Assembly: GCF_021278965.1 (NCBI RefSeq)
Contig: NZ_CP065589.1
Coordinates: forward strand, 4,841,001-4,905,000
Origin: Chryseobacterium capnotolerans
GTDB lineage: Bacteria > Bacteroidota > Bacteroidia > Flavobacteriales > Weeksellaceae
DNA length: 64,000 bases
Direction of reading: 5' to 3'
Below are positions 27,063-64,000 of this stretch, piece after piece. The notes under the pieces were generated by a model, which had not been told where the DNA came from, ran no database searches, and saw nothing but the letters and a program-made list of their open reading frames with translations. How positions within the stretch are numbered: the first letter of the stretch is position 1; each line of letters begins with the position of its first letter. The translations under genes and the position numbers were made by a program.

Positions 27063-27088
27063 AGGTTTTTTTTCGTTTTTACAGGAAA

Positions 27089-27119: not shown

Positions 27120-29138
27120 TTATTTTCCAACTGTTTGATTAATGATATCCAGGATCTGCTCTTCTTTCTCAAGTATCATCTGATGCGAAGCTTCAATAGG
27201 ATACACAGAAAGTAAATCTCTGTTGTCTACAATCGAGTCTATATTATTGTACATTGAATTTTTAATATGATTATTAAATGATTCATTGAATGTCTCCCCA
27301 CTCTGCATTGCTTTCAGTAATACCACCTGGGTAAAGTTCAGATTATTGGAAATAGGTTCTTTAGCAATCATAAATTCTGCTGACATGAAATTTTTGGTGG
27401 CTATAAAATGACCATCACCAATCGGGACCTCCAGCCTGTTACTTAATTCTTCATCTGTAGGGAATGAAAGAAAGTCTATTAATGTCTGATCTGATGCATA
27501 CAAAATGGTATCCAGCAAATAAACTTTAATTTTCTGATGTCCTCTTTTCTCCAGTTCAGAAGCGATTTCTAATGCAATATTTCCACCCAAAGACCAGCCC
27601 AGCAAAATGTATTCTTCCTGTTGGGTTTGCTCCTGTATGATATTCATGTGTTCCAGATAATAATTGGCCAGCCTGCTGAGATTATCAATTTTCTCTTCAT
27701 GGTATAGGTTGTAAGAATCTACCCCATAGCAATCATAATCTGACTTAAGCTGTTCTGCCAGAGACTGATATACTTCACTTCCTCCATTTCCTGGATGAAT
27801 AAGGAAAATATTAGGCTTGTTATTAATCCCGCCCAGCGTTGAAACCGTTTTATATTCTTTGCCATAGCTGCCAAGAATCACTGACAATTTATGAATGGTT
27901 CTTTCTTTGAAAATATCAATGATTTTGATCTGTACATCCAATAAAGCTCTTATTCTGCTTATCAGTTTGATGACCATAATACTATTTCCTCCTAATCTGA
28001 AGAAATCATCATGAATGCTTATCCTTTCAGAATCAATTTCTAAAACTTCAGCATAAATCTCTGCCAATTGTCTCTGAAGCTCATTCACAGGAGCTGCATA
28101 TTCTGAAATGCCTGTAAACTCAGGTTCAGGAAGCTGTCTTCTATCCAATTTACCGTTGATCGTTAAAGGAAGCCTATCAAGATGAACAAAAATATTCGGG
28201 ATCATATAATCCGGAAGAGACTCCATCAGAAATTCTGAAAGCTGCTGTGGATCAATTACAGGATCGGATACATAATATCCAACCAGATATTTTATTCCGC
28301 CTTTATTTTCTTTTACCAATACGGCAGCCTGGCGAACCCCTTCATAGTTGAGTACAGTATTTTCTATTTCTCCCAGCTCAATTCGGTGGCCCCGGATCTT
28401 CACCTGGAAGTCATTTCTTCCCATATATTCAAGATCTCCACTCGCTAATCTTCGTACTAAATCTCCTGTTTTGTATAAACGGCTGTTTTCTCCTCTTTCT
28501 TTCTGATCTCCTGTCTGGAATGGGTTTGCCATAAAACGTTCCTCAGTAAGTTCAGGTCTGTTCAGGTAACCTCTGGCGATACCAGCCCCACCAATATATA
28601 GCTCTCCTACCGCACCTGTTGGAACAGGGCGATATTGGTTATCAAGAATATATAAACTTGTATTCGCAATGGCTTTCCCAATGTTCAGCGGATTTTTATC
28701 TTCCTTGTAATGATGAAGCGTGGCACATACAGTTCCTTCTGTTGGACCATATTCATTGATCAAGGTAATGTTCTCTATATTTTTCTCCAGAGCAGGGAAG
28801 CTTTCTCCGCCGGCATGGATCAGTTGTAAGCTTGTTCCATTATCCACAATTTCTTTCAGCAGAACTGGCGGAATAAAGGAAACTTCTACAGTATTTTCTT
28901 TAATATAAGCATTAAGATCATTTACTGAAGTTCTCAAATCATTACTATACAGCCAAAGGGTATTTCCGTTACATAAAGACGGGAATATCTCATATACAAA
29001 GGCATCAAATACATAGTTGGAGTACACGCCTACATTCTGATATTTTTCAAGCTGATGAACTTTCGTCATGGCATCCATCAGATTGATCACTCCTTTATGC
29101 TCAATCATTACTCCTTTTTGGAAGTCCTGTGGTTCCAC
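27120..29138 (-). CDS. NRPS C-terminal piece: module 10 A domain (most), T domain, thioesterase
   Basis: This frame continues the giant NRPS after an extra base in the T5 run at 29115-29119; with T4 the previous frame reads through as YTSGTTGLPKGVMIEHKGVI. The apparent start (MEPQDFQK) is therefore an artefact. Domains: rest of A10 (NEYGPTEGTVCA, YKTGDLVRR, GRNDFQVKIRGHRIELGEIE, LTINGKLDRRQLPEPE), T10 (FFRLGGNSIMVIKL, Ser carries the phosphopantetheine arm) and a type I thioesterase (IFLIHPGNGGSEVY, LLGWSLGGNIALE nucleophile elbow, catalytic His in EASHQMILE). The thioesterase releases the peptide by hydrolysis or cyclisation. The protein ends at a TAA just before the stem-loop. Confidence 0.93.
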   Translation of the reverse strand: MEPQDFQKGVMIEHKGVINLMDAMTKVHQLEKYQNVGVYSNYVFDAFVYEIFPSLCNGNTLWLYSNDLRTSVNDLNAYIKENTVEVSFIPPVLLKEIVDNGTSLQLIHAGGESFPALEKNIENITLINEYGPTEGTVCATLHHYKEDKNPLNIGKAIANTSLYILDNQYRPVPTGAVGELYIGGAGIARGYLNRPELTEERFMANPFQTGDQKERGENSRLYKTGDLVRRLASGDLEYMGRNDFQVKIRGHRIELGEIENTVLNYEGVRQAAVLVKENKGGIKYLVGYYVSDPVIDPQQLSEFLMESLPDYMIPNIFVHLDRLPLTINGKLDRRQLPEPEFTGISEYAAPVNELQRQLAEIYAEVLEIDSERISIHDDFFRLGGNSIMVIKLISRIRALLDVQIKIIDIFKERTIHKLSVILGSYGKEYKTVSTLGGINNKPNIFLIHPGNGGSEVYQSLAEQLKSDYDCYGVDSYNLYHEEKIDNLSRLANYYLEHMNIIQEQTQQEEYILLGWSLGGNIALEIASELEKRGHQKIKVYLLDTILYASDQTLIDFLSFPTDEELSNRLEVPIGDGHFIATKNFMSAEFMIAKEPISNNLNFTQVVLLKAMQSGETFNESFNNHIKNSMYNNIDSIVDNRDLLSVYPIEASHQMILEKEEQILDIINQTVGK

Positions 29139-31020
29139 TGGTGTAAATCACATAAGCTAAATGGTCTGAAGATACATGAGTCGCAGGATTATGATCCTCT
29201 GCTGCCATCAGTTGATCAGCTACTTCTCTGCTGTTCAATGAAACCATATTTATATCCAAAGAAATCTCTCTTAATTTATGCTTTACTTCTTCATGAATAA
29301 GAATAACCTCAGCTGCTGTATCTTTTAAAATATGGGAGATTCTTTCTGCAGGATATGAAGGATCCATCGGAACGTAGCCTGCTCCAGCTTTTAATACAGC
29401 AAGAATGGCTATCAACATCTCTTCAGAACGTTCAAGGCATAGCGGAACCAAATCATCCGGCTGAAGCTGGTATTCTTTGATAAGGTAATTAGCCAACTGA
29501 TTAGCTCTGTCATTCAGCTCTTTATAAGATAATCTAACATTCTGATATACCAAAGCTGGAGCATCAGGGGTTTTAATAACCTGGGCTTCAAACTGCTGGT
29601 GAATAGTATTTTTATCCTGATATTCTTTTCTGTTATCATTCAATACTTCAATGATCTGTCTATTTTCTGTTTCTGACAGAAGGGATAACTCTCCTATTTT
29701 CAAATTCTTACTATCAGAGACTCCGGATTGTACAATCTGGCTCAACAGATATTGATAAGTATCAGCTATACGGTTTATCGTTTCTTTTTTAAATAAAGAT
29801 GTCGCGTAGTTGAAGGTCATCTGAATCCCGTCAGGATTTTCATTAATCATCGTTGTAAGATCAAACTTTGCTGCCTGATAGTCTACCTCACCATCAAAAG
29901 GCTGGAAAATAATGTCTTCTCCCTGAGCTACTGCTTCACCTCCATTGCTGGTCTGAAGCCCAAACATCACCTGGAACACAGGATGCCTTGAAGTATCCTG
30001 TTCTATTCCCAGCTCTTCCACCAGTTTTTCAAAAGGAAGATCCTGATGAGACTGTGCTTCTGTTACGGATTTTGACACCTGCAGGATGAAATCTCTGATA
30101 TCTTGTTTAGGATCAATTTTTTCTCTTAATGCCAATGTATTGACAAAGAATCCAATAAGGTCTTCAAGGCCTGCATAGTGACGGTTGGCAATCGGGCTTC
30201 CCACTATAATATCATCCTTACCTGAATAGGCAGAAAGGGTAAGATAGTAACCACTCAACATCACATTGTACAAGCTTACTCCAAGTTTTTTAGATACTTC
30301 TTTCAAGCCAAGTGCTGTTTCTTCCAGGATATTGAATCCTATGGTATCTCCTTCGTAAGAAATTTCCGCCGGCCTGTGGAAGTCTACCGGAAGATCTAAG
30401 CTCTGGTGGTCATCCAGTTTTGTTTTCCAGTAGTCAATTTGGCGATCAAGACGTTCTCCTGTAAGATAATTTCGCTGCCATAATGCAAAATCCTTGTATT
30501 GGATTGTTAATTCAAGAAGTTCAGGCTGTTGTCCTCCTGCAATAGCATAATAAGCAGCAGCTATTTCTTTCAGGAATATATCGGTAGACCAGCCATCAAA
30601 AGCAATGTGATGAATAACCACTGAAAGATAATGGGTATTATCTAATCTAAAAATGTTGATTTCAACAGGGGTTTCTTCTTCCAAACGAAATACTTTATGA
30701 GCAGCTTTGTTTACTAATTCTTCTAACCCTTCTCTATTTCCTGCTTCTATCGTTCTGATTTTCGGAAGGAGATCAGTCACTATCTGGTAGCCTACTCCAT
30801 TTTCTGTGGTCAGAATGAGTGTACGAAGAACTTCATGACGTTGAATTACTGTTTCTAAAGCCTTACATAAAGCAGGAATATCAGTTTTCGCACTCAAAGT
30901 AACGGTCATTGGAATATTATAAGCACTGCTTCCGCCTTCATATGACTCTATAAACCAAAGTCTTTCCTGAGCAAAAGACAAGCGCTGCTCTTCTGGTGAG
31001 CTAACCTCAACAGGAATTAT
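27120..31020 (-). other. NRPS module 10: C(LCL)-A-T-TE, crossing the indel at 29115-29119
   Basis: The code is D-A-Y-F-I-A-E-V-C-K, as in modules 3 and 8. T reads LGGNSIMVIKL. The terminal thioesterase (27850-27120) has GWSLGG and a C-terminal SHQM histidine, so this is the release module. Confidence 0.9.
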
Positions 31021-34000: not shown

Positions 34001-37000
34001 TGTGCTTGGGTTAACTTCCAGGAGTTTTTAAGCTTTTCCGGATTTATTTTAGCCCTATACTCCCACATCAGCTGTACTCTGTAGGCATCATCTGTTTCTC
34101 CCTGATTCAGGGCATGGTATACGAATCCTTCCTGCAAGCTGTTCGCAAGATATACGCCTTCTATTTCTCCTTTCTCCTGAATGGCTGAAAGCTGAATTTT
34201 TTCTACTACATCATCTACATCCGATACAGTAAGATAGCTTCTGGTTTCTTCTGAAAGGGTCTTAATGACAGCTTCAAGGTTCTGTTTGAAGCTTTCGGCT
34301 AAAAGCGTAATTCTTTCATCAGAAAGGTATCCTGAGATTCCAAATCTAAGCTGTCCGTCAACCACTGCTCCATTAATGCTTACAAAATGGCTGTCACGAT
34401 TGGATGCTCCAACTCCGGCACCACTGTTTTCAGCAGCAATGAACCATGCTTTATCTCCAGATGCATCATCCTGATCAAGCTGTCCCAGATAGTTAAAGCT
34501 GATTTTTGGTAATTCACGGTTTATATATCCTACCAGGCTACCATAACCAATTCCATTATTTGGAATACTCCTTAAAGATTCTTTGGTTAGAACAATAGTC
34601 TCTTTTACTGATTTTCCTGTTTCCAGCTGTACCGGATACATGGTGGTGAACCAACCCATTGTTTCGGTAATATCTAACTGGCTGAATACTTCTTCACGTC
34701 CGTGTCCTTCCAATAAAATAGCATGACGCTGATCTCCAGTAACTTTAGTAAGAGCTGAAGCTAAAGCAGACAATAACAAATCATTGATCTGGGTGTGATA
34801 TACGTGATGTACTCCACGAATCAGGTTTCCTGTAGATTCTTTATCCAACTGAAGATGACCATGGTGATAACCTTCAGTAATCAGTTGAGATAGCGTTGAA
34901 TTGCTTTCCTCAACTGTATCAGCGATATGATTCCAATAGGTGGTTTCCTGATCTCTGGATTCCGGGTCTTCTTTTTTATAATTTCTTATGGCTTCTACCC
35001 ATTGACGGTAGCTGCTTCCTTTCTGAATCTGATAGTTTTCTCCTTTTTCAAGGGTTTGATAGATGTTTTTCAGGTCTTCGGTAAGGATTCTCCAGCTCAC
35101 CGCATCAATAATAATGTGATGGAACGCAAAGAATACTCTTGCACTTCCATCCTGATAGCCATTGATATATCCGATCTGATATAATGGTCCTTTTTCAATA
35201 TCGAAATTAGACTGCCAATCTGTGAATATATCAGCTAATTCTTCAGGATTCAAGCCAGAAGCATCAAGATATTTAATTTCAGGAGTTTTTTGACCTGTTT
35301 TATACTCTTGTGTATGGCCTGTATATCCTAATCTGAAAGCGTCATGCTTCGTTAACAATTGCTCTACAGCTTGTTCAAAAAGAACTTTGTCAAGTTCAGG
35401 AACATTGATTAAGAAAGCCTGGTTCCAATGATTGAATTCTGTAAGATAACCTGATTCTTTTTGTTCGAAGAACCATTCCTGCACTGGAAGAAGCGGCACT
35501 TCTCCTGTAAGAATACCCTGTTCGGTAAGGATAGTGGCTTCACTGCCATGTTTTTTATCTTCTATAAGCTGAGATAATGAAGCTACAGTTCGCGCTGTAA
35601 AGACTTCTTTTACACTTAATCTTACTTCTAACTGTTGGCGGATCTTTCCTACCAACTGAATGCTGATAATACTGTCCCCACCCAATCTGAAGAAATCATC
35701 ATGAATACTGATGGTCTCCGGATCAAGACCAAGTACATCGCCATAGATCTGGCAAAGTGCAGACTGAAGTTCTGTTTCGGCAGCTACATAATCTTTACCT
35801 GCTGTGAAGTCAGGTTCAGGTAATGCTCTTCTGTCTAATTTTCCGTTAATGGTAAGTGGAAGTTCAGTTAAGTGAACAAAAGCACCGGGAACCATGTACT
35901 CCGGAAGGAATTCTGATACGAATTCAGAAAGAAGATGGGTATCTATTGACAACTCAGAGACATAATAAGCTGCCAGGTATTTTAACCCTGCTTTATTTTC
36001 TCTTGCTAACACTGCTGTCTGACGAATACCTTCAAACTGAAGAAGGGTATTTTCAATCTCTCCCAATTCAATTCTATGACCACGGATCTTCACCTGGAAG
36101 TCATTTCTTCCTCTGTATTCAAGCTCTCCGTTTGGCAGCCAGCGAACTAAATCACCGGTTCTGTATAAACGGCTGTTTTCACCTCTATCCTTCTGATCTT
36201 TCGTCTGGAACGGGTTTACCATGAAACGTTCTTCTGTAAGCTCAGGTCTGTTCAGATACCCTCTGGCAATACCTGCTCCACCAATGAACAATTCTCCTAC
36301 GCCTCCTACAGGAACAGGACGATAGTGAGCATCCAGAACATATAAGGCTGTATTTGCAATGGCTCCCCCAATATTTAATGGGTTTTTATCGTCTTTGTAC
36401 TCATGGAGGGTAACACAGACGGTTCCTTCTGTTGGCCCATATTCGTTGACAAGGGTAATGTTTTCAATATTTTTATCTAAAGCCGGGAAGCTTTCCCCTC
36501 CCGCGAAGATCAGTTTTAAGCTTGTTCCGTTCTCCACAATCTCTCTCAATAAGACTGGTGGAATAAAGGAAACTTCTATCGCGTTTGTTTTAATATAATC
36601 ATTAAGCTCATTCACTGAAGTTCTAAGCTCATTGGTGTATAGCCATAAAGTATTTCCATTACACAATACAGGGAATGCTTCGTACACAAAGGCATCAAAT
36701 ACATAATTGGAATAGCATCCTACCTCCTGATATTCTTCAAGTCGGTGTGCCTTAATCATTGATATGATGAGGTTTATAACTCCTGCATGTTCAATCATTA
36801 CTCCTTTAGGAAGTCCTGTAGTTCCACTGGTGTAAATAACATAAGCCAGGTTTCGTGAATGAACTTCTGTAACAGGGTTGTTAATCACTTCCGTCTCAAG
36901 TGTTGCTTTAAGGGTAACATCATCCAATGAAATAACTTCTATATGCTGTAATTTCTCTCTTGTACTTTCCTGTGCAATGACCAGTTTTGCTTGGGTATCT

Positions 37001-38889: not shown

Positions 38890-41830
38890 GACCTCCCCGT
38901 AAACCTTGCATAATTGTTCCTGTAATTCGTTTTCGGGGGCTATATAATTTTTACTTCCTGTAAATTCAGGTTCAGGTAATGCTTTTTATCCAGCTTACCA
39001 TTGATTGTCAACGGTAAAGAGGTCAAATGAATGTAGATTCCGGGAATCATATATTCCGGTAGTGATTCTGACAGATATTCTGATAGTAAGGATGATTCTA
39101 TTTCATTTTCAGAAACATAATAACCGGCAAGATATTTTAAGTCTGTATTATTTTCTTTAGCTAAAACAGCAACCTGGTTAATTCCGGGATATCCAAGTAA
39201 TCTATTTTCAATCTCACCAAGTTCGATTCTGTACCCACGGATCTTCACCTGGAAATCATTTCTTCCGATGTATTCAAGCTCGCCATTGGATAACCAGCGA
39301 ACCAAATCTCCGGTTTTGTATAAACGTCCGTTTTCACCTTTCTTTTTCTGATCTTCAGTCTGGAAAGGATTAATAATAAAGCGTTCTTCTGTAAGATCTG
39401 TTCTGTTCAGATAGCCTCTTGCAATTCCTGCTCCGCCTATGTATAGTTCTCCTACAGCTCCTGCCGGAACAATACGGTGATTGTTATCCAATACATAAAC
39501 GGTCATATTTCCGATTGGACCTCCTATATTCACTGGATTTTCATCTTCGTTATAATGATGCAGAGTAGCACATACTGTGGTTTCTGTTGGTCCGTAAGCA
39601 TTGATCAGGTCTACTCCATGCTCTTTATACATGGCCATCACCTGTGGATTGGTAACGTCTCCGGCTACGACAAGGATTTCCAATGGTAAAATATATTCCC
39701 TTGTTAAAAGTACAGGCGGAATAGTTGCAATACTGATGGTATTCTTTTCGATATAAGCACTTAAAGCAGACAGATCGGTTTGAAGGTCTTTTTCTAAAAT
39801 ATAGATTGCATGTCCATGAGTGATGGATGGATATAATTCCCAAACATGGGCATCAAATACATAATTCGCATACCATAAACAGTTCTTTTGAGTATCAGTT
39901 CCAAGCAGTCCGAATTCTTTAGCTTCCTGATGAATTAGGTTGGCCACATTTCTGTGTTCAACCATAACTCCTTTAGGCAATCCGGTGGTTCCACTGGTGA
40001 AAATAACGTAAGCTAAATGCTTTGATTTTGTATAAGTAACAGGATTGTTACCATCATACGTTTCAAGTATTGCTTTAAAGGTTACCTCATCTAATGAGAT
40101 CACCTCTGCACTTATATTTTCCAGCTTTTCTACCGTACTTTCCTGACCTAAAGCCAGTCTTGCTCTGGTATCCTGAAGGATGTGCTCTATTCTTTCCACA
40201 GGATAAGAAGGGTCCATCGGCACATAGGCTGCCCCGGATTTTAATACAGCTAACATTGCAATCAGCATATTTTCGGAACGGTCTAAACACAATGGAACTA
40301 ATTCATCCGGCTGAAGATCATGAGTATCTATCAAATAATTGGCTAGACGGTTTGATTTTTCATTCAGTTCTTTATATGTCAATACCCTTTCCTGATAGAC
40401 TAATGCTATGTTTTCCGGAGTTTTCTGTACCTGTTCTTCAAACAGCTGATGAATGGTTTTATCAGAAGGATAATCAGATTCCACGGCATTCCATAGCTGC
40501 ATTTGTTTCAATTGATTATCTGAAACATGTAAAAATTTATCGGAAGTGATTTGATCATTTTCAAGTATCTGAGCTAAAACGGCTTTCATTCCATCAATCA
40601 ACTGTTCCATCATCTGCTGTTCAAAAAGAACGCCTTCATAGTTAATCTTCAAGGTTACACTTTCCCCTTGTTCAAACGCCATAATTCCTAATGGATAATC
40701 CAGTTTTTCAACAGAATTCCGGAAGACAAATCCTAGCTCATTGTTATCATCTCCTCCTTGTGGTACAGGATAGTTTTCATAGACAAATAAACTGCTGAAA
40801 ATACGTCTTGCATCCTGATGAAGTTCTGCAAGGTTTACATCACTATGGGTATTAAGCTCACTGATTCTCTGCTGAATATCGGAGATAATATCCACCACTT
40901 TACCCTGAGTATGCTGTACAATTAATGGAAGTGTATTGATGAAAAGACCTGCTGAAGATTCAATATCATCCACAGGAAGGCTTCGTCCGGATACAGTAGT
41001 TCCTACCACCGTTGTTTCAACACCTCCGTATACACTCAGCTGGCTATGCCATAGATATTGAAGAACTGCATTAATGGTAAATCCGTTTTTGGCAGTAAAT
41101 TTTTTCAGTTGCTGATACTCTTCCTCAATAATCGTCATTTTTACAGCCTGATGATCTTTAATCTGACGATAGGTTCCCAAATCGATATGTTTTTGGGATT
41201 CTTTGATCAGGCTGCTAAGGTCTTCACGGTCTTCGAGAAGGTTCATATAAGCATTCCAGAAGCTTCGGCTGCCCTCTTTGTGCTGCTGAAGGTATTCCTG
41301 GGTTTTGATATAGGCATGATCTGTAGTAATATTCAGATCCTGTTTTTTGATAAGCTTCAGATAAATATCATGAATACTCGTTAATATGATAGGCATACTC
41401 CAGCCATCCAGCACCGCATGGTGGTTACTGAAAAGACAGGTATAATGCTTTTCGGAACGTTTAAACAGATATACTCTGAATAAACCCCCTTTTGATAAAT
41501 CATATACTTCAAATCTGTCTTTTTGAGTAGCTTCCCGGATCAATTCTTCCTGCATCTCCTCATTCATGGCACTCAGATCCAGATAACGCCAGTCTAAACT
41601 TCCTTTTTTATCAATAATCTGGATGATTTCTCCATTCCAGTCAAATCTAAGTCGTAGTGCCGGAAACTGTTGCTGGGTATAAGACCATGCCTCTTTAAGA
41701 GTCTCAATATTCATGTCAGAAAGATAATCCCATACCAATTGTACTCGATAAGCATCATCTGTATCTCCCTGGTTCAATGCATGATATACAAATCCTTCCT
41801 GAAGACTGTTTGCCAGATATATTTTTTCCA
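38720..41830 (-). other. NRPS module 7: C(DCL)-A(Phe-like)-T, crossing the indel at 38983-38987
   Basis: The code is D-A-W-T-V-A-A-V-C-K, identical to module 6. Core motif A3 reads IFTSGTTGLPKG. T reads DIFRLGGNSI. No epimerase, so an L aromatic residue. Confidence 0.87.
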
Positions 41831-49300: not shown

Positions 49301-52300
49301 TTGTTCATTTCACTCAAATCGTGATAACGCCAGTCAAGGGTTCCTTTTTGATCAATAATCTGAACAATTTCTTCACTCCAGTCAAATCTTAATCTTAGCG
49401 TAGGAAGTTGATTTTGAGTATATATCCATGCTTTTTTCAATTGCTCAAGATTCATTTCTGAGCGATAATCCCATACCAATTGTACACGATAAGCATCATC
49501 TGTATCCCCCTGGTTCAATGCATGATATACAAATCCTTCCTGTAAGCTGTTGGCAAGGTATACACCTTCTACCGCTCCAGATTCCTGAATATACATCAGC
49601 TGATCTTTACCAACGATATTCTCTGTATCTGAAGGTGTTAACCAGGTTCTCTGTTCTGCTGTTAATTCATCAACAGTCTGTTTTATATACTCTTCAAATT
49701 TTTGAGTAAGCAGGTTCACCTGATCCTGTGAAAGGTATCCTGAGATTCCAAAGCGAAGCTGCCCATCAGCAATGGCTCCGTTGACACTAATGATATAACT
49801 GTCCCGGTTTTTATCCCCCATGGAGTTCCCACTATTTTCACCTGAGATATACCAGATTTTTTCACCGGTACTTTCTTCCTGGTCAAGCTGCCCAAGATAG
49901 TTGAAACTGATTTTCGGAAGGGCCTGTTCAGTATATCCTACAAGACTGCCATACCCAATTCCGTTATTTGGAATGCTTCTCAGCGATTCTTTGGTTACAA
50001 CAACAGTGTCTTTTACGTCTTTTCCGGTTTGCAGCAGTAATGGATACATGGAGGTAAACCACCCTACTGTTTCTGTAATATCCAGATTATTGAACACTTC
50101 TTCACGGCCGTGACCTTCCAGAAGAACGGCATGTCCTGATGTCCCGGTAAGGTCCGAAAGTGCAGAAGCAAGTGCAGATAACAGAATGTCATTGATTTGT
50201 GTATGGTATACATGATGAATCTCTCTGATCAGTTTTTCCGTATAGCTTTCTTCCAGACTAAGATTCGCAAAATGGTAGTCCTGAGAGGATATTTCCCTCA
50301 AAATATCATTGCTTTTCGTAATGTTTTCGGCTGTATGAGTCCAATATGTCAATTCTGTGGCTCTCTCTTCCGGTTGATCAAGAAGATATCCTTTTACAGC
50401 TTCAGTCCACTGACGGTAGCTGCTTCCTTTTATATAGGCTTCAGGCTGCTTTCCTTTTTCCAGTGTTTGATATATATTTTTCAGATCCTCTGTAATGATT
50501 CTCCAGCTTACAGCATCAATAATTAAGTGGTGTAATGCAAAGAATATTCTGGCACTACCATCTTCATATCCATGAACATAACCTATCTGGAATAAAGGTC
50601 CTTTTTCTATATCGAAATGAGACTGCCATTCTGTAAATACTTGGGAAAGCTCTTCTGATGACATTCCTGAAATATCAAGATCTTTAATTTCCGGAATATA
50701 TTCTATTCCGTACTGTTGAGTATAGGTATTATTTTCTTTTGGATAAAACATTCTGAAAGCATCATGCTTTTGAATAAGCAGCTTTATACTTTGCTTTAAT
50801 AGTTCTGTATTAAGCTCAGGAACTGTAATCAGGAAGGATTGATTCCAATGATTAAGATCTCCTACATATCCGTCTTCCACCAAATTAAAGAACCATTCCT
50901 GGATAGGAAGGAATGATAAACTTCCGGTAAGCTGACCTTGTTCCGTCAGAATCTGAGTTTGCTCTTCTTTGGCCTTGCTTTCCATTAATTCAGAAAGTTT
51001 CAGGACTGATCTGGAAGTAAAAATATCTTTAACGCTTACTCTTATGTCAAGCCTTTGTCTGATTCTGCTGACAAGCTGAATACTGATAATACTGTCTCCC
51101 CCTAGTCTAAAGAAATCATCATGGATACCGATGCCCGAAGCATCCAAACCTAACACTTCGCCATAAATCTGGCATAATTTCTCCTGTAATTCGGTTTCCG
51201 GGGCGGTGTATTCTCTGCCTCCTGTAAATTCAGGTTCTGGTAAGGCTCTTCTGTCTAATTTACCATTGATGGTCAGTGGCAATGAGGTTAAATGAACAAA
51301 AGCTGCCGGAACCATATATTCTGGTAATACTTCTGATAAAAATACCGTAAGAGCACTTACTTCATGTGCTTTTTCAGATACATAATAGCCAACCAGATAT
51401 TTCAGCCCGGCTTTGTTTTCTTTGGCCAAAACAACAGCTTGTTTTACTTCAGGATATTCCTGAAGTCTGTTTTCAATCTCTCCTAGCTCAATTCTGTAAC
51501 CACGGATCTTCACCTGGAAGTCATTTCTTCCAATGTATTCTAATTCTCCGTCAGCAAGGTAACGTACCAAGTCTCCGGTTTTGTACAAAATATCATTAGT
51601 TCCTTGCTTCTTTTCTTCCAAGGTCTGGAAAGGATTGCTGATAAAACGTTCTGCAGTGAGTTCTTCACGATTCAGATAGCCTCTGGCAATTCCCGCTCCA
51701 CCTACATACAATTCTCCTACAGCGCCTACCGGAACTGCCCGAAGATGTTTATCTAATATATACATACCCTGATCCGGAATATTCTCCCCGATTAATGAAG
51801 CTTTATCCAAATCTTCTGCACTCAGTTTCTTGTAGGTTACATGGACGGTTGTTTCGGTAATTCCATACATGTTAATCAGCGTTGGTGATTCAGAATAACG
51901 ATCATACCAAGGTTTTAAAGAGGCCAGGTTTAAGGCTTCTCCTCCGAAGATCACATAGCGAAGGTCTGTTAAATCCTCTTCTCTTTGAAGAGCCGTATCA
52001 ATAAACTGATAGAATGCCGTTGGGGTTTGGTTGAGTACCGTTAATCCTTCTTCTAAACATAGGCTGAAGAATAAATTCGTGTCTTTGGTCTGTTCAGAGG
52101 ATGGAACTAAGAGCTTTCCGCCATAGAATAAAGCCCCCCAGATTTCCCATACACTAAAGTCAAATACATAGGAGTGGAATAAACTCCAGACATCTTTGTC
52201 ATTGAACTGATACCAATGATCGGTGGCACTGAACAAACGGGCCACATTACGATGTTCCTGTAGTACTCCTTTCGGCATTCCGGTTGTTCCACTGGTGTAG

Positions 52301-54789: not shown

Positions 54790-57360
54790 ATCTCCGGTTT
54801 TGTATAAACGTCCGTTTTCTCCTCTTTCTTTCTGAATAATTGTTTGGAAAGGATTTGAGACGAATCGTTCTTCGGTTAATTCAGGACGGTTCAGATATCC
54901 TCTTGCGATCCCAGCTCCTCCAATATACAGTTCCCCTACAGCCCCTACAGGAGCCAGGCGATTTTGCTCATCAAGAACATATACATAGGTGTTTTCAATC
55001 GGGCCACTCGATGTTCAATGGATTTCTATCTTCTTTATAATAATGCAGTGTTGCACAGACTGTTCCTTCTGTAGGACCATATTCATTTACAAAGATAATA
55101 TCGTCAATATTTTTATCTAAAGCAGGGAAGCTTTCTCCGCCGGCAAATATGAGTTTCAGACTCGTTCCATGTTCTACAACTTCTCTTAGCAGAACAGGTG
55201 GAATAAATGAAACTTCAATATTATTATTTTTAATATAATCATTAAGTTCTCCTACGGATGTTCTGAGATCATTGCTGTACAGCCACAACGTATTTCCATT
55301 ACAGAGTACCGGAAATGCTTCATACACAAAGGCATCAAATACATAGTTTGAGTAGCATCCGACCTCCTGATATTCTTGAAGTCGGTGAGCTTTTATCATT
55401 GATTCAATGAGGTTTATCACTCCTGAATGTTCAATCATTACTCCTTTTGGCAATCCTGTGGTTCCACTGGTGTAGATCACATAAGCAAGATTATCTGCAT
55501 TAACCTGTACAACAGGATTTTCAGTTGATGTTATTTCAAGTTCTGCTTTAAGACTGATATCATCTAAAGCAAGAACCTCAACAGATGCATTTTCCAGTTT
55601 TTCTGCTGTACTTTCCTGTCCGATCACCAGTTTTGCCTCAGTATCATTCAAAATATGCTGTATTCTGTCTGAAGGATAGGAAGGATCCATCGGAACATAG
55701 GCTGCTCCAGATTTTAAGATAGCAAGAATAGCGATCAATATATTTTCTGACCTTTCAAGGCATACCGGAACCAAATCATCTGGTTGAAGTCCATAGTTTT
55801 CGATCAGATAATGAGCCAGCTGATTGGCCTTTTGATTTAATTCCTGATAAGACAAGATGATATTCTGATATACCAATGCTGTCTGATCAGGAGTATTTTT
55901 CACCTGATTTTCAAAAAGATGGTGTATTGTTATTTCTGATGGATATGTTGTATAGGTTGCATTCCAATCTTCTGTTAATTTTTTATACTGATCATGAGTA
56001 ACAAGGTTTAAATCAGAAAGAGTAATTTCTCTTTGATCTTCATCTTTTGTCATTTGCTCCAGTAAAAATTCATAGGAACGGATCATATTCCCCACCGTTT
56101 CTTTAGAGAAAATGGCTTTAGCATAGTTGAACATTCCTTTAATCTCATCTCCGCCATCATCAATCATTGTCGTCAGATCGAATTTAGCCACTTGATAATC
56201 TATTTCTCCATCAAAAGGATAAAACAGTCTGTCCTGGTTATTTTGAGATAAAGCATCACCACCGAAGTTCTGAAGCCCAAACATCACCTGGAAAACCGGA
56301 TGTCTCGAGGTATCCTGTTCTACTCCAAGTTCTTCTACTAATTTTTCAAACGGCAGGTCCTGATGAGATTGAGCATCGGTCACTGATTTTGAAACCTGAA
56401 GAAGGAAGTCTTTAAGATTTTGCTTAGCATCCAGTTTCTCTCTCAATGCCAATGTGTTGACAAAAAATCCGATAATATCTTCCAGTCCTGCATGATGACG
56501 GTTGGCGATAGGGCTTCCTACCACAATATCATCCTGCCCTGAATATGCTGAAAGCATCAGATAATATCCGCCCAGCATTACAGAATACAGGCTTATTCCA
56601 AGATTTTTGGATAAAGCTCTCAGCTTTTCACTTTGTTCTTCATCCAAGCTGAAATATAGATTTTCTCCTTCGTAAGAAATTTGAGAAGGTCTTCTGAAAT
56701 CGGTCGGAAGATCCAGGTTTTGGAAATCCTCAAGCTGATCTTTCCAATAATTGATCTGCTGTTCAAGACGTTGTCCTGAAAGATATTCACGCTGCCATAA
56801 AGCATAGTCTTTGTACTGAATCTGTACGTCAGAAAGTTCTTCCGCTTTTTCGTTATTAAGAAGTGCTTTATAGATCGTCTGGATTTCTTTCAGGAATATA
56901 TCGGTAGACCACCCGTCAAAAGCAATGTGATGAATTACTGCTGACAGATAATGTCTGTTTTCAAACTTGAAAATATTAGTTGCAATAGGAATTTCTACCT
57001 CAAGTCGGAAGATTTTATTAGCACATTTGTTAAGCGCTTCATCTAAATCTTCTCTTGTGCTTACTTCCGTCATATTCCATTCAGGCAGATGATCTGTAAC
57101 CTGCTGATAACCGACTCCATCTTCTGTTGTTTTAATCACGGAACGAAGGATTTCATGACGTTTAATTACTTTTTCAAATGCTTTCTGCAATACTGAAATA
57201 TCTGTTTTTTCATCCAGAATTGCTGCCATTGGGATATTGTAGGCACTGCTTCCACCTTCGTAGGTTTCAATAAACCAAAGTCTTTCCTGGGCAAATGATA
57301 ATCTTTGTTCTTCCGGAGAATTTACTTTTGCAGGAGTAATGACAGTCTGCTCTTCAGTGT
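54210..57360 (-). other. NRPS module 3: C(LCL)-A-T, crossing the indel at 55008
   Basis: The code is D-A-Y-F-I-A-E-V-C-K from FDAFVYEAF, SFIPP, LIFAGGE and NEYGPTEGTVC. I do not recognise this code; modules 8 and 10 share it. The A-V-C end with Glu322 recalls histidine-type codes, but Tyr239 and Phe278 do not. T reads LGGNSI. Confidence 0.8.
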
Positions 57361-60300
57361 GTGTTTCGTTGCTTACAACTTCAGACAAAGAAGCCACTGT
57401 TTTATGACTGAAAATGGTTGCCACTTCTACCCTTACCTCCAATACTTGCTTAATTTTACTGATCAGTTTGATGGCCATAATACTATTTCCTCCTAATCTG
57501 AAGAAATCGTCATGAATACTGATTCGGCTGCTATCCAATCCTAAAACTTCTGCATAGACTTCAGCGAGTTTCTGCTGGAGTTCATTGACTGGAGCAGTAT
57601 AGGTCTCCATCCCTATAAATGTAGGTTCAGGCAGCTGCTTTCTATCGAGCTTACCATTGATAGAAATCGGAAGTTCAATAAGATGTACAAATGCTGCGGG
57701 AATCATGTATTCAGGTAAAGTCTCTGATAAAAATTCTGAAAGCAGATGTGAATCAATGGCTGAGTCTGCCACATAATATCCTGCAAGATATTTCATCCCT
57801 GCATTATTTTCTTTAGCTAAAACGGCCACCTGACGGATTTCCGGATGTTGAAGCAACCTGTTTTCTATTTCTTCCAGTTCAATACGATAACCCCGGATTT
57901 TTACCTGGAAATCGTTTCTTCCGATATATTCTATATTTCCGTCCGGAAGCCAACGAACAAGATCTCCGGTTTTATATAATTTCCCGTTTTTATTATTTTG
58001 CGCTGCAGTTTGAAAAGGGTTGAAAATAAAACGCTCATCTGTAAGATCAGGTCTGTTCAGATACCCTCTGGAAACCCCTGATCCTCCAATATAAAGTTCT
58101 CCTGCGGCTCCAACAGGTACAGGACGGAACTGAGCATCTAATACATAAACGCTTGTATTACCAATAGGGCGTCCTATACTGTTTGCTCTTCTATTATTAT
58201 TAACAATTGAGGTAACGGTAACTTCAGTGGGACCATAACAATTAAGAAAGTTGAAATGTTCCCCTTTTAATTTATTATAAAGATCTACAGTCAAAGCTTC
58301 TCCTCCTGAAGCCAGTTTACGCATTGTTTTCACTTGTGTGATATCAATATTCTGCAACACCGAAGGAGTAAGATTGATATAGGAAACTTTATGATCATTA
58401 AGCATTTTTATGAATGCTTCTTCATTTAAATAGCTTTTCTCTTCACTAAGAAGCATACTATTTCCATTCAGAAGAGCCAATAACATCTGCTCTACGGATG
58501 GGTCAAATACATAGTTGGCAAATTGAAGAATAACATCCTGATCATCCAGACCATAACGGGAATACAGGTCAGAGACAAGGTTCACTACATTTTTATGCTC
58601 TACCATTACCCCTTTTGGAAGCCCTGTTGTTCCACTCGTATAAATGGCATAGGCAAGATTGCCCGAGTTTATATTGATAGTAGGATTTACCGCAGGCATT
58701 CCCTCAATAGCATCTTTAAATAGAATATTATCAAGAGATACAATATTTACATTTTCAACCACTTGCACCTGATTCTCTGTGCTTTCCTGGGCAAGGACTA
58801 CCCTTGCACCTGTATCTGTCAGAATATGTTTTATTCTATCAGCAGGATAGGAAGGATCCATAGGAACATAAGCTGCTCCTGCTTTCCATACTGCCAAAAT
58901 AGCAATGATCATATTCTCCGAACGTTCTAAACATAAGGGTACTAATTCGTCAGGCTGAAGATTATATGTACTGATAAGATAATGAGCCAGACGGTTTGAG
59001 CGCGCATTCAGCTCACTATATAAGAGTTTTCTATCCTGAAATATCAGGGCTATATGATCTGGAGTTTTTGCAACCTGTTTTTCAAAAAGTTCATGGATGG
59101 TTTTCTCAGATGGGAAATCATACCAGGTATTATTCCAATCTTCTGTTATCTTTTTATACTTTTCTTGGGCAAGTAGCTGTAATCCGGATGATGTAATGTT
59201 TTCATTTTCAAGAACCTGATTAAGTGAAACCTGCATTCCTTCAATCACTTGAGCCATCATTTCATTATCAAACAGATAGCCTTCGTAGTTTAGGGTTAAT
59301 GAGACCTCGTTTCCTCTTTCAAAAGCGACAATACCTAGTGGATAATCCAGTTTCTCCACTGAATCCTTGAATACAAAACCAAGTTCATTTTGATCTTGTC
59401 CTTCCGTTACAGGGTAATTTTCAAATACAAATAAGCTGCTGAAAATCCTGCGTCCATCATGGTGAAGTTCTGCCAGATTAATGTCACTATGCGTATTAAT
59501 ATCACTAATTCTGTTCTGAATTTCTTTGATATGATCTACCACTCTTTCTTCTTCATGAGTAACAATCAATGGTAGTGTGTTGATGTAGAGTCCTGCTGAT
59601 GATTCTATTCCCTCTACCGGCAAGCTTCGTCCTGATACTGTTGTTCCTACAACTGTTGTACTCAACCCGCTATAAATCCTCAGCTGTTGATGCCACAAGT
59701 ATTGTAATATGGCATTTACGGTTAATCCATGAGATTTTATAAAGGCTTTAAGCAGATCATATTGATCTCCTGTTATCATCATTTTTACCTGTTGATGATC
59801 CTGGATATGGCGATAGGTAGCCAAATCAATAGATCTCTGAGATTCTTTAATTAATCCACTTAAATCTTCCTGATCTTCCAGAGACTTCATATAAGTATCC
59901 CAGAACTTTCTGCCTGTTTCTTTATGATCCCGAAGATATTTCTGAGTTTCTGTATAGGCTTGGTCCTGTACAACAGTAATATCCTTCCCTTTAGTAAGGT
60001 TCAGATAGTGGGTATGAATACTGTTAAGAACTACTGGGATGCTCCATCCATCCAAAATAGCATGATGGTTACTGAACAGGCAAGTATAATGATCTTTTGA
60101 ACGTTTAAACAGGTATACTCTGAAAAGATCGCCTTTAGAAAGATCATATCCTTCAAAACGGTCTTTTGTCGTAATTTCTTTAATGAATGTTTCCTGAGCA
60201 GAATCAGGTATCTCACTGATGTCCTGATAACGCCAGTCTACATTTCCATTTTTATTGATGACCTGAACAATCTCGCCATTCCAATCGAACCTCATCCTCA

Positions 60301-63300
60301 ATGAAGGATAAGCAGCTTGGGTAAGACTCCAGCCTTTCTTAAGGCTCTCAATATCAAGAGCTGTATGATAATCCCATAATAGCTGTACTCTGTAAGCATC
60401 GTCTTTTTCTCCCTGATTCAAGGCATGGTACACAAATCCTTCCTGCAAACTGTTCGCAAGGTATACACCTTCTATTTCTGCTGTCTTTTGGATCTCTGTA
60501 AGCTGCTCAAAGTCTACCACGTAGTCTACATCGGATGGAGTAAGATAACTTTGTGTTTCCTGAGAAAGAGTTTCTACAATGGTTTCAATACTGGTTTTAA
60601 AATCTTCTGTAAATAGTTTAATCTGTTCATCGGGTAGATATCCTTCAATTTCAAAACGTAATTGTCCATCCACAACAGCTCCGTTCATGCTGATATATTG
60701 GCTGTTTCGGTTGTTTTTTCTTATTCCTGATCCGGCATCTTCTGCTGCAATAAACCAGCTTTTCTCTTCTGTTTCCTGATCTAGTTGTCCTAAATAGTTG
60801 AAACTTATTTTTGGAAGATCGCGTTCTGTATATCCTACCAAACTTCCATAACCAATTCCGTTATGAGGAACTCTTCTTAAAGATTCTTTGGTCAAAATGA
60901 TGGTATCTGCCAGTCCTTTTCCGTTTTTCAGAAGTAAAGGGAACATCGTGGTAAACCATCCCATCGTTTCCGTGATATCAAGCTGTTGGAATACTTCTTC
61001 ACGGCCATGACTTTCTAAAAGAACAGCATGGGAATCTTCACCTGTTAACTTTGAAAGAGAAACTGACAAAGCAGACAATAGCAGATCATTAATCTGAGTC
61101 TGGTAAATATGATGAGTATTTCGGATTAAAGCTTCAGTTATTTCTTTATTTAAAATCAGACTACTGCGGTAAGAATCTTTTATGATGAACTGATCCAAAG
61201 CTTTATTCTGAACTTCTGTAGTATCTGCACATGTAGTCCAGTACAATAATTCCTGGGCTCTGGATTCTGCATACTCAGAACAATAATTTTTTACAGCATT
61301 CACCCATTGACGGTAGCTGCTTCCTTTTGTGTGGGAAAGAATTGTTTCTCTATCTCCTTTTTCAAGGGCCTGATAAATATTCTTTATATCTTCTGTAATA
61401 ATCCTCCAGCTTACTGCATCAATAATCAAATGATGAAAAGCAAAATAAAGTCTGGCACTTCCATCATTATATCCATAGATATACCCTATCTGATACAATG
61501 GGCCTTGCTCAATATCAAACCCGGATTGCCATTCTGTAAGTATTTTTGATAGTTCTTCTTTATTCAGAGCGGAAGCATCTAATTGTTTGATAGACGCGAA
61601 GATTTGAGTATTTCCATACGATTGAATATACCCCATATTGCTTTTTTCAAATTTTAATCTGAATGCATCATGTCTTTCTATCAAATGTCTGATAGATTCT
61701 TCCAGTAATTCTTTATCAAGTTCAGGAACATTCACAAGGAAAGCCTGATTCCAATGGTTGAAGTCTGCAAGATATCCCTGTTCTTTCTGGCTAAAGAACC
61801 ATTCCTGAACAGGAAGTAAGGAAACTTCTCCTGTAAGGAGTCCTTGTTCCGTTACAATTTGTGTTTGTTCGTTCTTTTTATTTTCTTCAATAAGTAAGGA
61901 CAATGCAGCCGGTGTTCTGGATGTAAAAATCTCTTTCACACTTACTTTTACATCAAGCTGTTGTCTGATTCTTCCTACCAGCTGAATACTGATAATACTA
62001 TCCCCTCCTAATCTGAAGAAATCATCGTGAATACTGATTGTTCCAGCATCAATTCCCAATACACTGCTATAAATCTGGCATAATCTGGATTGAAGTTCAG
62101 TCTCTGGAGCAATATAGTCTTTACTTCCTGTAAATTCAGGTTCAGGCAGCTGTTTTTTATCCAGTTTTCCGTTAATTGTAAGCGGTAAAGATTCTAAGTG
62201 AACAAAGGCTCCGGGAACCATATACTCTGGTAAAGATTCTGATACATATTCCGAAAGAAGCTGAGAATCTATTGCTGAATCAGCAACATAATATCCGGCC
62301 AGATATTTCAAACCGGTATTATTTTCTTTAGCCAGCACTGCTGTCTGGCGGATGTCCGGATAACGAACTAATGTATTTTCAATTTCTCCTAATTCAATTC
62401 TATAACCACGGATTTTCACCTGGAAATCATTTCTTCCCAGGTATTCCAGCTCTCCATTAGAAAGCCAGCGTACCAAATCCCCTGTTTTATATAATCGTCC
62501 ATTTTTATCTACTGCTTTTTCAGCTCTACTTTGGAAAGGATTGATCATAAAACGTTCTTCTGTAAGCTCCGGACGGTTCAGATATCCTCTGGTAATGCCT
62601 GCTCCGCCAATATAAAGCTCACCTATTGCTCCAACAGGAACCGGACGTAGCTTATCATCCAAAACATAAGAAGTCATATTTCCGATAGCCTTTCCTATAT
62701 TCAGTGGATTGTTGTCTTCTTTATAGTAATGAAGGGTGGCACAAACGGTTCCTTCTGTAGGACCATAAGCATTAATAATATCTATTCCCTGAGCCTGATA
62801 AAGGGCCATCAATTGAGGATTGGTAACATCTCCGGCAACCATAAGTTTCTCCAGTGGTAAAATATAATCTTTGGTAAGAAGTACCGGAGGGATTGTTGCA
62901 ATCCTGATATCATTTTCACGGATATAGTGCTGTAATGCTGCAATATCGGTTTGTCTTTCTTTATCCAGCAGATAAATGCTATGACCATGGGTAATAACAG
63001 GGAAAAGTTCTGCAACATGTGCATCAAAAACATAATTGGCATACCAAAGACAATTTTTCGTGGCACTTTCTCTGGTATTTAACTCCAGCTTTTCTGCAAA
63101 TTGGGTCACAAGGTTTGAAACTCCTCTATGTTCTACCATTACTCCTTTCGGAAGTCCTGTTGTTCCGCTGGTATAGATCACATACGCTAAATTTCCAGAC
63201 TTTGTTTCCGTAACAGGGTTATTTGAATCTGCAATCTCTAATTGTGCCTTATATTGAACCTCATCCAAAGAAATATATTCAGCATTTTGATCTTTTAATT

Positions 63301-64000
63301 TTTCAATTGTACTCTCCTGACCTATCACCAATCTGGCCTTGGTGTCTTTTATAATATGCCTGATTCTGTCTGAAGGATATGAAGGATCAATCGGCACATA
63401 GGCTCCTCCGGATTTCAGAACTCCCAGCATCGCAATCAACATATTTTCGGAACGGTCCAAACATAGGGGAATAATTTCGTCTGGTTGAATAGTATATTTT
63501 CCGATCAGATCATTGGCCAATTGATTTGCTTTTTCGTTTAATTCCTGATAGGAAAATTGAATATCCTGATATACTAAAGCAGTATGATCCGGAGTTTTTA
63601 CCACCTGATCTTCAAAAAGCTGATGGATGGTTTTATCAAATGGATATTCAGAAACCGTATTGTTCCAGTTTTCAATAACTGTTTTATAATCTGTATTTTT
63701 AAGGAGTTGGAAATCATTGATCTTAATATTCTCTGCATTTTCAGACCCTATTGCTGCAATTTGTTCCAACAACAGAACATAGGTATCTTTCATCCTCAAA
63801 ATGGTCTCCTTACTGAAAAGAGAAACGGCATAATTAAACATTCCTCTTATCTTTTCCTCTCCATCATCAATCATTGTGGTAAGGTCAAATTTTGCCGCCT
63901 GATAATCTATTTCGCCTTCAAAAAGAGAGAATACATTATCTTTTCCGGTTTCCCTACCAAAGCTTTGAACACCAAACATCACCTGAAATACCGGATGACG
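54995..64000 (-). CDS. NRPS N-terminal piece in this window: modules 1, 2 and most of 3, open at window end
   Basis: The frame is open at position 64000 (first visible residues RHPVFQVMFGVQSFG, inside a condensation domain), so the gene continues upstream. Order: end of C1 (LCL-type), A1, T1, E1 (HHLIIDAVSWR, FNYLGQLDQ), DCL-type C2 (HHAILDGWSIPV), A2, T2, LCL-type C3 (HHIAFDGWSTDIF), A3 to NPLNI. It stops because of one extra base at 55008 (GGCCACTCGATG instead of GGCCACCGATG on the plus strand). Corrected, it reads NPLNIGGPIENTYVYVLDEQ and continues in the next piece. No start codon or promoter of this gene is in the window. Confidence 0.95.
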   Translation of the reverse strand, partial: RHPVFQVMFGVQSFGRETGKDNVFSLFEGEIDYQAAKFDLTTMIDDGEEKIRGMFNYAVSLFSKETILRMKDTYVLLLEQIAAIGSENAENIKINDFQLLKNTDYKTVIENWNNTVSEYPFDKTIHQLFEDQVVKTPDHTALVYQDIQFSYQELNEKANQLANDLIGKYTIQPDEIIPLCLDRSENMLIAMLGVLKSGGAYVPIDPSYPSDRIRHIIKDTKARLVIGQESTIEKLKDQNAEYISLDEVQYKAQLEIADSNNPVTETKSGNLAYVIYTSGTTGLPKGVMVEHRGVSNLVTQFAEKLELNTRESATKNCLWYANYVFDAHVAELFPVITHGHSIYLLDKERQTDIAALQHYIRENDIRIATIPPVLLTKDYILPLEKLMVAGDVTNPQLMALYQAQGIDIINAYGPTEGTVCATLHYYKEDNNPLNIGKAIGNMTSYVLDDKLRPVPVGAIGELYIGGAGITRGYLNRPELTEERFMINPFQSRAEKAVDKNGRLYKTGDLVRWLSNGELEYLGRNDFQVKIRGYRIELGEIENTLVRYPDIRQTAVLAKENNTGLKYLAGYYVADSAIDSQLLSEYVSESLPEYMVPGAFVHLESLPLTINGKLDKKQLPEPEFTGSKDYIAPETELQSRLCQIYSSVLGIDAGTISIHDDFFRLGGDSIISIQLVGRIRQQLDVKVSVKEIFTSRTPAALSLLIEENKKNEQTQIVTEQGLLTGEVSLLPVQEWFFSQKEQGYLADFNHWNQAFLVNVPELDKELLEESIRHLIERHDAFRLKFEKSNMGYIQSYGNTQIFASIKQLDASALNKEELSKILTEWQSGFDIEQGPLYQIGYIYGYNDGSARLYFAFHHLIIDAVSWRIITEDIKNIYQALEKGDRETILSHTKGSSYRQWVNAVKNYCSEYAESRAQELLYWTTCADTTEVQNKALDQFIIKDSYRSSLILNKEITEALIRNTHHIYQTQINDLLLSALSVSLSKLTGEDSHAVLLESHGREEVFQQLDITETMGWFTTMFPLLLKNGKGLADTIILTKESLRRVPHNGIGYGSLVGYTERDLPKISFNYLGQLDQETEEKSWFIAAEDAGSGIRKNNRNSQYISMNGAVVDGQLRFEIEGYLPDEQIKLFTEDFKTSIETIVETLSQETQSYLTPSDVDYVVDFEQLTEIQKTAEIEGVYLANSLQEGFVYHALNQGEKDDAYRVQLLWDYHTALDIESLKKGWSLTQAAYPSLRMRFDWNGEIVQVINKNGNVDWRYQDISEIPDSAQETFIKEITTKDRFEGYDLSKGDLFRVYLFKRSKDHYTCLFSNHHAILDGWSIPVVLNSIHTHYLNLTKGKDITVVQDQAYTETQKYLRDHKETGRKFWDTYMKSLEDQEDLSGLIKESQRSIDLATYRHIQDHQQVKMMITGDQYDLLKAFIKSHGLTVNAILQYLWHQQLRIYSGLSTTVVGTTVSGRSLPVEGIESSAGLYINTLPLIVTHEEERVVDHIKEIQNRISDINTHSDINLAELHHDGRRIFSSLFVFENYPVTEGQDQNELGFVFKDSVEKLDYPLGIVAFERGNEVSLTLNYEGYLFDNEMMAQVIEGMQVSLNQVLENENITSSGLQLLAQEKYKKITEDWNNTWYDFPSEKTIHELFEKQVAKTPDHIALIFQDRKLLYSELNARSNRLAHYLISTYNLQPDELVPLCLERSENMIIAILAVWKAGAAYVPMDPSYPADRIKHILTDTGARVVLAQESTENQVQVVENVNIVSLDNILFKDAIEGMPAVNPTININSGNLAYAIYTSGTTGLPKGVMVEHKNVVNLVSDLYSRYGLDDQDVILQFANYVFDPSVEQMLLALLNGNSMLLSEEKSYLNEEAFIKMLNDHKVSYINLTPSVLQNIDITQVKTMRKLASGGEALTVDLYNKLKGEHFNFLNCYGPTEVTVTSIVNNNRRANSIGRPIGNTSVYVLDAQFRPVPVGAAGELYIGGSGVSRGYLNRPDLTDERFIFNPFQTAAQNNKNGKLYKTGDLVRWLPDGNIEYIGRNDFQVKIRGYRIELEEIENRLLQHPEIRQVAVLAKENNAGMKYLAGYYVADSAIDSHLLSEFLSETLPEYMIPAAFVHLIELPISINGKLDRKQLPEPTFIGMETYTAPVNELQQKLAEVYAEVLGLDSSRISIHDDFFRLGGNSIMAIKLISKIKQVLEVRVEVATIFSHKTVASLSEVVSNETHTEEQTVITPAKVNSPEEQRLSFAQERLWFIETYEGGSSAYNIPMAAILDEKTDISVLQKAFEKVIKRHEILRSVIKTTEDGVGYQQVTDHLPEWNMTEVSTREDLDEALNKCANKIFRLEVEIPIATNIFKFENRHYLSAVIHHIAFDGWSTDIFLKEIQTIYKALLNNEKAEELSDVQIQYKDYALWQREYLSGQRLEQQINYWKDQLEDFQNLDLPTDFRRPSQISYEGENLYFSLDEEQSEKLRALSKNLGISLYSVMLGGYYLMLSAYSGQDDIVVGSPIANRHHAGLEDIIGFFVNTLALREKLDAKQNLKDFLLQVSKSVTDAQSHQDLPFEKLVEELGVEQDTSRHPVFQVMFGLQNFGGDALSQNNQDRLFYPFDGEIDYQVAKFDLTTMIDDGGDEIKGMFNYAKAIFSKETVGNMIRSYEFLLEQMTKDEDQREITLSDLNLVTHDQYKKLTEDWNATYTTYPSEITIHHLFENQVKNTPDQTALVYQNIILSYQELNQKANQLAHYLIENYGLQPDDLVPVCLERSENILIAILAILKSGAAYVPMDPSYPSDRIQHILNDTEAKLVIGQESTAEKLENASVEVLALDDISLKAELEITSTENPVVQVNADNLAYVIYTSGTTGLPKGVMIEHSGVINLIESMIKAHRLQEYQEVGCYSNYVFDAFVYEAFPVLCNGNTLWLYSNDLRTSVGELNDYIKNNNIEVSFIPPVLLREVVEHGTSLKLIFAGGESFPALDKNIDDIIFVNEYGPTEGTVCATLHYYKEDRNPLNIEWPD
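57380..60500 (-). other. NRPS module 2: C(DCL)-A-T
   Basis: The condensation domain is of the type that follows epimerases (ANSLQEGFVYHALNQGEKDD). The adenylation code reads D-P-E-N-A-G-C-V-T-K. Glu239 and Asn278 resemble ornithine/hydroxyornithine-type codes, so a basic residue is a weak guess. Its core (FANYVFDPSVEQMLLALLNG) is unlike all other A domains here. T reads LGGNSI; no epimerase. Confidence 0.8.
60520..64000 (-). other. NRPS module 1: (C, LCL type, partial)-A-T-E
   Basis: The A domain has TSGTTGLPKGVMVEH, AYGPTEGTVCA and the specificity positions D-A-A-T-M-A-A-V-C-K (PheA numbering 235, 236, 239, 278, 299, 301, 322, 330, 331, 517). This is the phenylalanine-type pocket with Trp239 replaced by Ala, so I infer an aromatic and perhaps larger residue. 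T reads LGGDSI and is followed by an epimerase, giving a D residue. Boundaries approximate. Confidence 0.85.

Follow-up and report, generated by a model that had tools for sequence, protein, structure and literature searches.

A twelve-module nonribosomal peptide synthetase gene in Chryseobacterium, very likely fragmented by assembly errors in the Chryseobacterium capnotolerans genome

Introduction

Separate subunits are the usual form of bacterial nonribosomal peptide synthetase (NRPS) assembly lines, and the locus described here raises the question of whether five neighbouring open reading frames (ORFs) are such subunits or the remains of one gene. The window (the whole stretch of DNA that was analysed, 64,000 nucleotides of the Chryseobacterium capnotolerans genome) contains five ORFs on its minus strand (27120-29138, 29101-38889, 38940-42053, 42040-54789 and 54995-63982), and Pfam matches to NRPS domains are found in all of them. 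An initial annotation had proposed that they form a single gene of more than 12,290 codons, open at the window edge and interrupted by four frame changes. The source genome is a single contig of 5.36 Mb with 95.3% completeness and 3.1% contamination; completeness is 98-100% in 34 of 35 relatives of the same genus, and 90% in the remaining one (G021).

From the comparisons described below, and with a probability of about 0.95, the five ORFs would be pieces of one NRPS gene of around 14,760 codons that extends beyond the window, the four breaks being very likely single-base assembly errors. Indel errors are thus very likely the cause of the apparent multi-gene NRPS of the source genome, and anyone counting genes, ordering modules or comparing clusters from the source assembly would be misled.

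Extent of the gene and its intact form in relatives

When the last piece was used as query against 59 relatives, nearly full-length matches were obtained in G006, G005, G015 and G025, within stop-free frames of 14,763, 14,741, 14,738 and 14,334 codons, respectively. The protein of G006, the nearest relative found, was cut into pieces of 400 residues and aligned to the source genome with a threshold of 80%. These pieces match colinearly from position 71407 down to position 27123 (window coordinates) with 84-96% identity, the upstream end being 7.4 kb outside the window. Owing to this colinearity with the intact G006 frame, the minus-strand stretch 27120-64000 is described here as the 3' part, five sixths in length, of a single 12-module NRPS gene. 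Extension beyond position 64000, which had been suggested as a check, places the gene start, the initial C domain and modules 1 and 2 at around 64000-71407; the open end at the window edge is confirmed and the unity of the five ORFs is supported. Two parts of the G006 protein have no match in the source genome at the 80% threshold: codons 4001-4800, which span the fourth adenylation domain (A4), variable between species, and codons 14001-14098, which adjoin the last frame break.

In the G006 alignment the reading frame shifts four times: at 55001-55005, at 42118-42122, in the interval 39018-38985 and in the interval 29413-29117. These are the same places that had been named from the sequence of the window. 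According to the domain matches in window coordinates they interrupt A5, the epimerization domain E8, A9 and A12, so the claim that every ORF boundary falls inside an A or E domain also stands. All pieces are on the minus strand. Piece 1 (54995-64000 within the window; ORF list and domain matches) contains part of C3, then A3, T3, E3, C4, A4, T4, C5 and the first part of A5. Domain matches together with the G006 alignment define the next three: piece 2 (42040-55005) carries the rest of A5, T5, C6, A6, T6, E6, C7, A7, T7, C8, A8, T8 and most of E8; piece 3 (38940-42122) carries the end of E8, C9 and A9 up to its C-terminal part; and piece 4 (29101-38985) carries T9, C10, A10, T10, E10, C11, A11, T11, C12 and the first part of A12. 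Piece 5 (27120-29138) holds the rest of A12, T12 and the terminal thioesterase (AMP-binding, PP-binding and Thioesterase matches). The thioesterase match (PF00975, 66 bits) covers positions 2-101 of 226 only; it agrees with the earlier statement that the chain ends in a thioesterase.

To follow the distribution of the gene, 173 Chryseobacterium genomes were searched with the N-terminal domain from G006 (cut-off 1e-30); 25 of them, the source genome included, match at this level or better. A single frame of 14,334-15,234 codons is present in nine of the other 24 genomes with this domain (G006, G005, G015, G025, G073, G086, G138, G150 and G182). All modules are thus in one frame in nine relatives, and the source sequence is broken four times. 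The calculated mass of the protein, a chain known as an open frame, is 1.63-1.67 MDa in four relatives. In five further genomes (G117, G119, G120, G130 and G193) the frame is still open at the end of the contig. At the locus of G122 two frames, one of 6,316 and one of 8,597 codons, overlap, and judging from this sequence a split state may exist there. Merely two modules follow the same N-terminal domain in G133, the NRPS parts of G004 are spread over two contigs, and G034, G105, G129, G161 and G167 have frames of 494-3,880 codons. The N-terminal C domain occurs in nine copies and various frames in G029, which suggests several NRPSs beginning with this domain. As a separate observation, the same locus appears in six listed frames in G188 (C3:606001-666000; L112-L114), possibly another error-rich assembly.

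Origin of the frame changes

The frequency of frame breaks around the locus was estimated with G006 ORFs of 150-5,000 codons, taken from 363 kb and aligned to 400 kb around the source locus. ORFs of more than 5,000 codons were excluded as queries, so that the NRPS has no influence on its own expected number of breaks. The best match with at least 75% identity and at least 85% coverage was taken as the orthologue, a definition that leaves badly broken or divergent genes uncounted. Broken orthologues amount to 30 of 202, with 36 frame changes in 72,147 codons, which gives the conserved neighbouring genes a rate of 1.66 breaks in every 10 kb of coding sequence. With queries from G005 and G025 the numbers are 10 of 83 and 3 of 40. 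In the reverse comparison (source ORFs on G006) one of 211 is broken, and it is a fragment of a broken source gene; between relatives (G005, G006 and G025) no break was detected in 88, 88, 40 and 40 genes. At the rate of the neighbouring genes 7.4 breaks would be expected in the 44.3-kb NRPS gene and four are observed (probability of four or fewer, 0.14). Counting single-base indels directly in DNA alignments gave 135 within coding sequence, but compensating gap pairs in divergent stretches made this figure too noisy to use.

NCBIfam scans of the G006 orthologues covered 20 of the 30 broken genes, and a match at 1e-60 was obtained for ten of these twenty. The broken genes that exceed the curated NCBIfam cut-off include murF-alr, glmM, murG, murD, mraY and murE; the break in murG, near the start of the gene, is less clear and does not resolve to one gap. 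Cell-wall genes such as murD, mraY and glmM are needed by a walled bacterium. For these three, a search of the whole source genome returned the broken pieces and matches below the cut-off, and no other copy above it.

Each event (the 36 frame changes plus the four of the NRPS) was also examined in a 300-base alignment. Exactly one single-base gap explains 31 of the 40, and the other nine have no such resolution. Homopolymer runs of at least five bases hold 14 of the 31 resolved events; of 20,000 coding bases drawn at random from G006, 4.8% are in such runs. Three of the NRPS breaks fall within homopolymers of 5, 6 and 7 bases, and the fourth is outside any run. Related to the coding capacity of the pieces, dN/dS against G006, calculated for each of the five separately, is 0.070-0.116, and five pairs of intact relatives give 0.081-0.133; these ratios indicate that all five pieces are under purifying selection.

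Since nine relatives carry a single uninterrupted frame, and since essential cell-wall genes and other neighbours are broken in the same way, the four frame changes of the NRPS are very likely assembly errors. The alternative that best survives, improbable as it is, would be that the changes are real and that the NRPS gene has recently decayed into a pseudogene in the source strain. They are, in fact, present in the assembled sequence, and large secondary-metabolite genes are often lost. Nevertheless, cell-wall genes without another copy above the cut-off are broken too, the break rate of the NRPS (4 observed vs 7.4 expected) is not above that of ordinary genes, and a dN/dS of 0.07-0.12 in every piece is hardly what decay would leave.

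A true multi-protein NRPS, with the five ORFs as separate subunits, is more improbable still. Possible start codons exist in the five ORFs, and the locus of G122 in two frames could be taken as a precedent; however, the four junctions inside A or E domains would leave A5, E8, A9 and A12 incomplete, and nine relatives lack any break. Programmed frameshifting, which would link the frames during translation, can practically be set aside, for although homopolymers of 5-7 bases occur at three of the four sites, no shift is required in the relatives, and 30 of 202 other genes are broken, with both missing and additional bases.

Module organisation and predicted product

The organisation of the synthetase was read from the intact relatives, which have a C-like domain at the N-terminus, twelve A domains, twelve T domains, an E domain in four of the modules, and a thioesterase at the end. 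As in modular type I NRPSs, C-A-T units with the core motifs are repeated, and there is a terminal release domain (the PF00975 match of piece 5). By motif search the number of A domains is 12 in seven of the nine relatives with an intact frame; G025 has 11 and G150 has 13. The T motif has 12 matches in seven intact relatives and 11 in G005 and G015. The ten modules counted at first correspond to the ten A domains that the window holds, but the gene has twelve.

The 16 C-like domains of G006 form four classes by identity. The first is the N-terminal C-like domain alone, with 13-21% identity to the others. The second, LCL-like, has seven members (C2, C3, C5, C6, C8, C10 and C12; 56-66% mutual identity), and the third, DCL-like, has four (C4, C7, C9 and C11; 58-68%), each directly after an E domain, the placement expected for DCL. 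The four E domains (E3, E6, E8 and E10; 58-64%) constitute the last class. The HHxxxD motif is kept in all of them except the N-terminal domain (PF00668), where S-H-x3-D-G replaces H-H-x3-D-G in G006 and PHxxxDG is found in G025. A sequence search of the PDB with this domain gave weak matches, the best being bacitracin synthase 3 (5.8e-10). The domain probably has a starter role, acylating residue 1. Two motif readings were corrected: an HHxxxDG-like match within A domains was false, and the motif string of G138, which lacked E3 and had an additional early match, was amended because E3 is present by domain comparison.

In the window (minus strand throughout, located by domain matches, with C and E classes taken from the G006 orthologues), the E domains are E3 (60527-61831), E6 (49618-50913), E8 (42097-43188, broken near its end at 42118-42122) and E10 (34213-35505). 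The DCL-like C4 lies at 59147-60472 and the LCL-like C12 at 29653-30990. Binding-pocket codes were assigned for eight of the twelve A domains by alignment with a residue key, by which we take the codes to be Thr at modules 6 and 7, Phe-like at 8 and 9, aromatic-like at 3 and hydrophobic at 5, 10 and 12. These domains include A3 (61862-63151), A5 (54175-55450, broken by the frame change near 55005), A6 (50956-52275), A7 (46411-47712) and A9 (38979-39977, with the frame change 39018/38985 at this end).

Reading the domain order with established NRPS rules, the predicted product is a dodecapeptide of configuration L-L-D-L-L-D-L-D-L-D-L-L, with D-residues at positions 3, 6, 8 and 10. The divergent N-terminal C domain would begin the chain by acylating residue 1, and the twelve modules would add one residue each in gene order. 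The E domains of modules 3, 6, 8 and 10 would convert their residues to the D form, which the DCL-like C domains next in line (modules 4, 7, 9 and 11) would accept. The completed dodecapeptide would then be released or cyclised by the thioesterase at the end of the chain.

Variation of adenylation domains between species

The length of the gene is nearly constant between species, and the code of A4 (57317-58618 in the window, minus strand; strongly variable in the species comparison) is of three types: one in the source genome, G073 and G182, another in G006, G025, G086, G138 and G150, and the third in G005 and G015. In the last two genomes A7 and A11 also differ from the remaining ones. Comparison in windows of 60 residues gives a median identity of 92% between G006 and G073, with only two windows below 60% (58% and 35%), near or in A4. 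Between G006 and G005 the median is 75% and 36 windows are below 60%; the two lowest, with 22% each, are in A7 and A11, and others are in linkers and in A4. No 60-residue window below 60% was found between G006 and either G086 or G138.

The A4 of the source genome shares 93% identity with A4 of G073 and only 66% with A4 of G182, despite the same code, which indicates that part of the variation is old. The A7 of G005 is closest, after its G015 orthologue, to A4 domains (67% to A4 of G006). In G150 (C28, L094-L096; a genome 89% complete) module 4 contains tandem A domains with no carrier between them and 38% mutual identity, the first of which has the code DFLCIGIVF and most resembles the Thr-like A6/A7 cores (70%). 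In G025 (C1, L064-L066) the A core of module 11 has been lost and C, an A remnant and T are left, so this module would not load its own residue.

From the dips in identity we infer exchange of A domains, fast divergence being the alternative. A tentative proposal, somewhat less probable than its converse, is that the locus may be a natural system of A-domain exchange on a fixed 12-module chain of 1.67 MDa, in which the backbone of C, T, E and thioesterase domains is under purifying selection, the A cores 4, 7 and 11 are swapped, and the tandem A-A of module 4 and the deleted A of module 11 are captured intermediates of remodelling. Localised A-domain differences in a conserved backbone could offer boundaries tested by evolution for understanding the diversification of NRPSs.

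Comparison with known synthetases

Giant single-chain bacterial NRPSs are a known kind of enzyme, to which the Chryseobacterium locus adds a new example. Huge bacterial proteins are often NRPSs (PMC11573180, whose main text does not mention Chryseobacterium). It was fair to call a single-polypeptide NRPS of this size unusual, but it is not unique: SypC, of the syringopeptin synthetase of Pseudomonas syringae, is described with 12 modules, in sypA-sypB-sypC lines of 5-5-12 and 8-5-12 modules (PMC9769872). Both have 12 NRPS modules in one bacterial polypeptide, known here as an open frame. SypC shares its assembly line with two other proteins, whereas all 12 modules and the inferred start are in one protein here; the phylum and the module order are also different.

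The kolossin A synthetase, whose host is Photorhabdus, is likewise a giant NRPS for a peptide of D- and L-residues. Its product is a pentadecapeptide and its initiation module is reported to carry a formylation domain (PMC8949500), unlike the 12 modules and N-terminal C-like domain found here.

Within the genus, 19 non-singleton Chryseobacterium-specific NRPS families have been reported (PMC10734526), and the present locus may be one of them; in the available portion of that paper, neither a single gene of 14.7 kcodons nor its modules or product is described. Other NRPS clusters of Chryseobacterium appear there and in PMC8151938, and the available portions do not include this gene. Among the titles and abstracts on NRPSs and lipopeptides of Chryseobacterium, a search whose scope leaves out most subscription papers and preprints, none describes the enzyme or its product, and no paper on an NRPS size record was found. 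To our knowledge, the intact locus would rank among the larger single-chain bacterial NRPSs.

Neighbouring genes

The order of the genes beside the NRPS is common to the source genome, G005, G006, G015 and G025. Upstream, around 3 kb from the NRPS start and syntenic in the five genomes, there is a putative phosphopantetheinyl transferase gene (PF01648), whose product would arm the twelve carrier domains. The absence of an MbtH-like gene, a phosphopantetheinyl transferase and a starter module had been remarked for the window. It holds for MbtH, with no family match in ten genomes (source and nine relatives; controls positive in E. coli and B. subtilis), and MbtH is predicted not to be required; the transferase gene and the N-terminal C domain lie beyond the edge.

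Downstream, on the minus strand, a separate gene for a type II-like thioesterase (26340-27104; PF00975, 108 bits), also beside the NRPS in four relatives, probably serves to clear misloaded carriers. The adjacent gene of an MFS exporter (25095-26310), which may export the product, is in two frames here and in one in relatives (404 codons in G006), and a gene for an AraC-type regulator (24126-25028; GyrI-like domain in the G006 orthologue) is kept beside the cluster. Elsewhere in the window, 14896-16130 and 20906-21566 are also in two frames here and in one in G006 (408 and 218 codons). The breaks of these two and of the exporter gene are of the same kind as those of the NRPS, and two of the three have no one-gap resolution.

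Between the transferase gene and the NRPS, the five genomes share two genes of about 586-589 and 188-189 codons (window coordinates 71783-74343), which resemble each other with 48-57% identity in cross-genome matches. In their G006 orthologues, the 188-codon gene has no family match and the 586-codon gene has a weak Fib_succ_major match below the cut-off. Directly 5' of the NRPS start, the leaders of G005, G006, G015 and G025 resemble one another in their ACCTAAACCTAACC-like stretches, and the unit CCTAA is repeated there.
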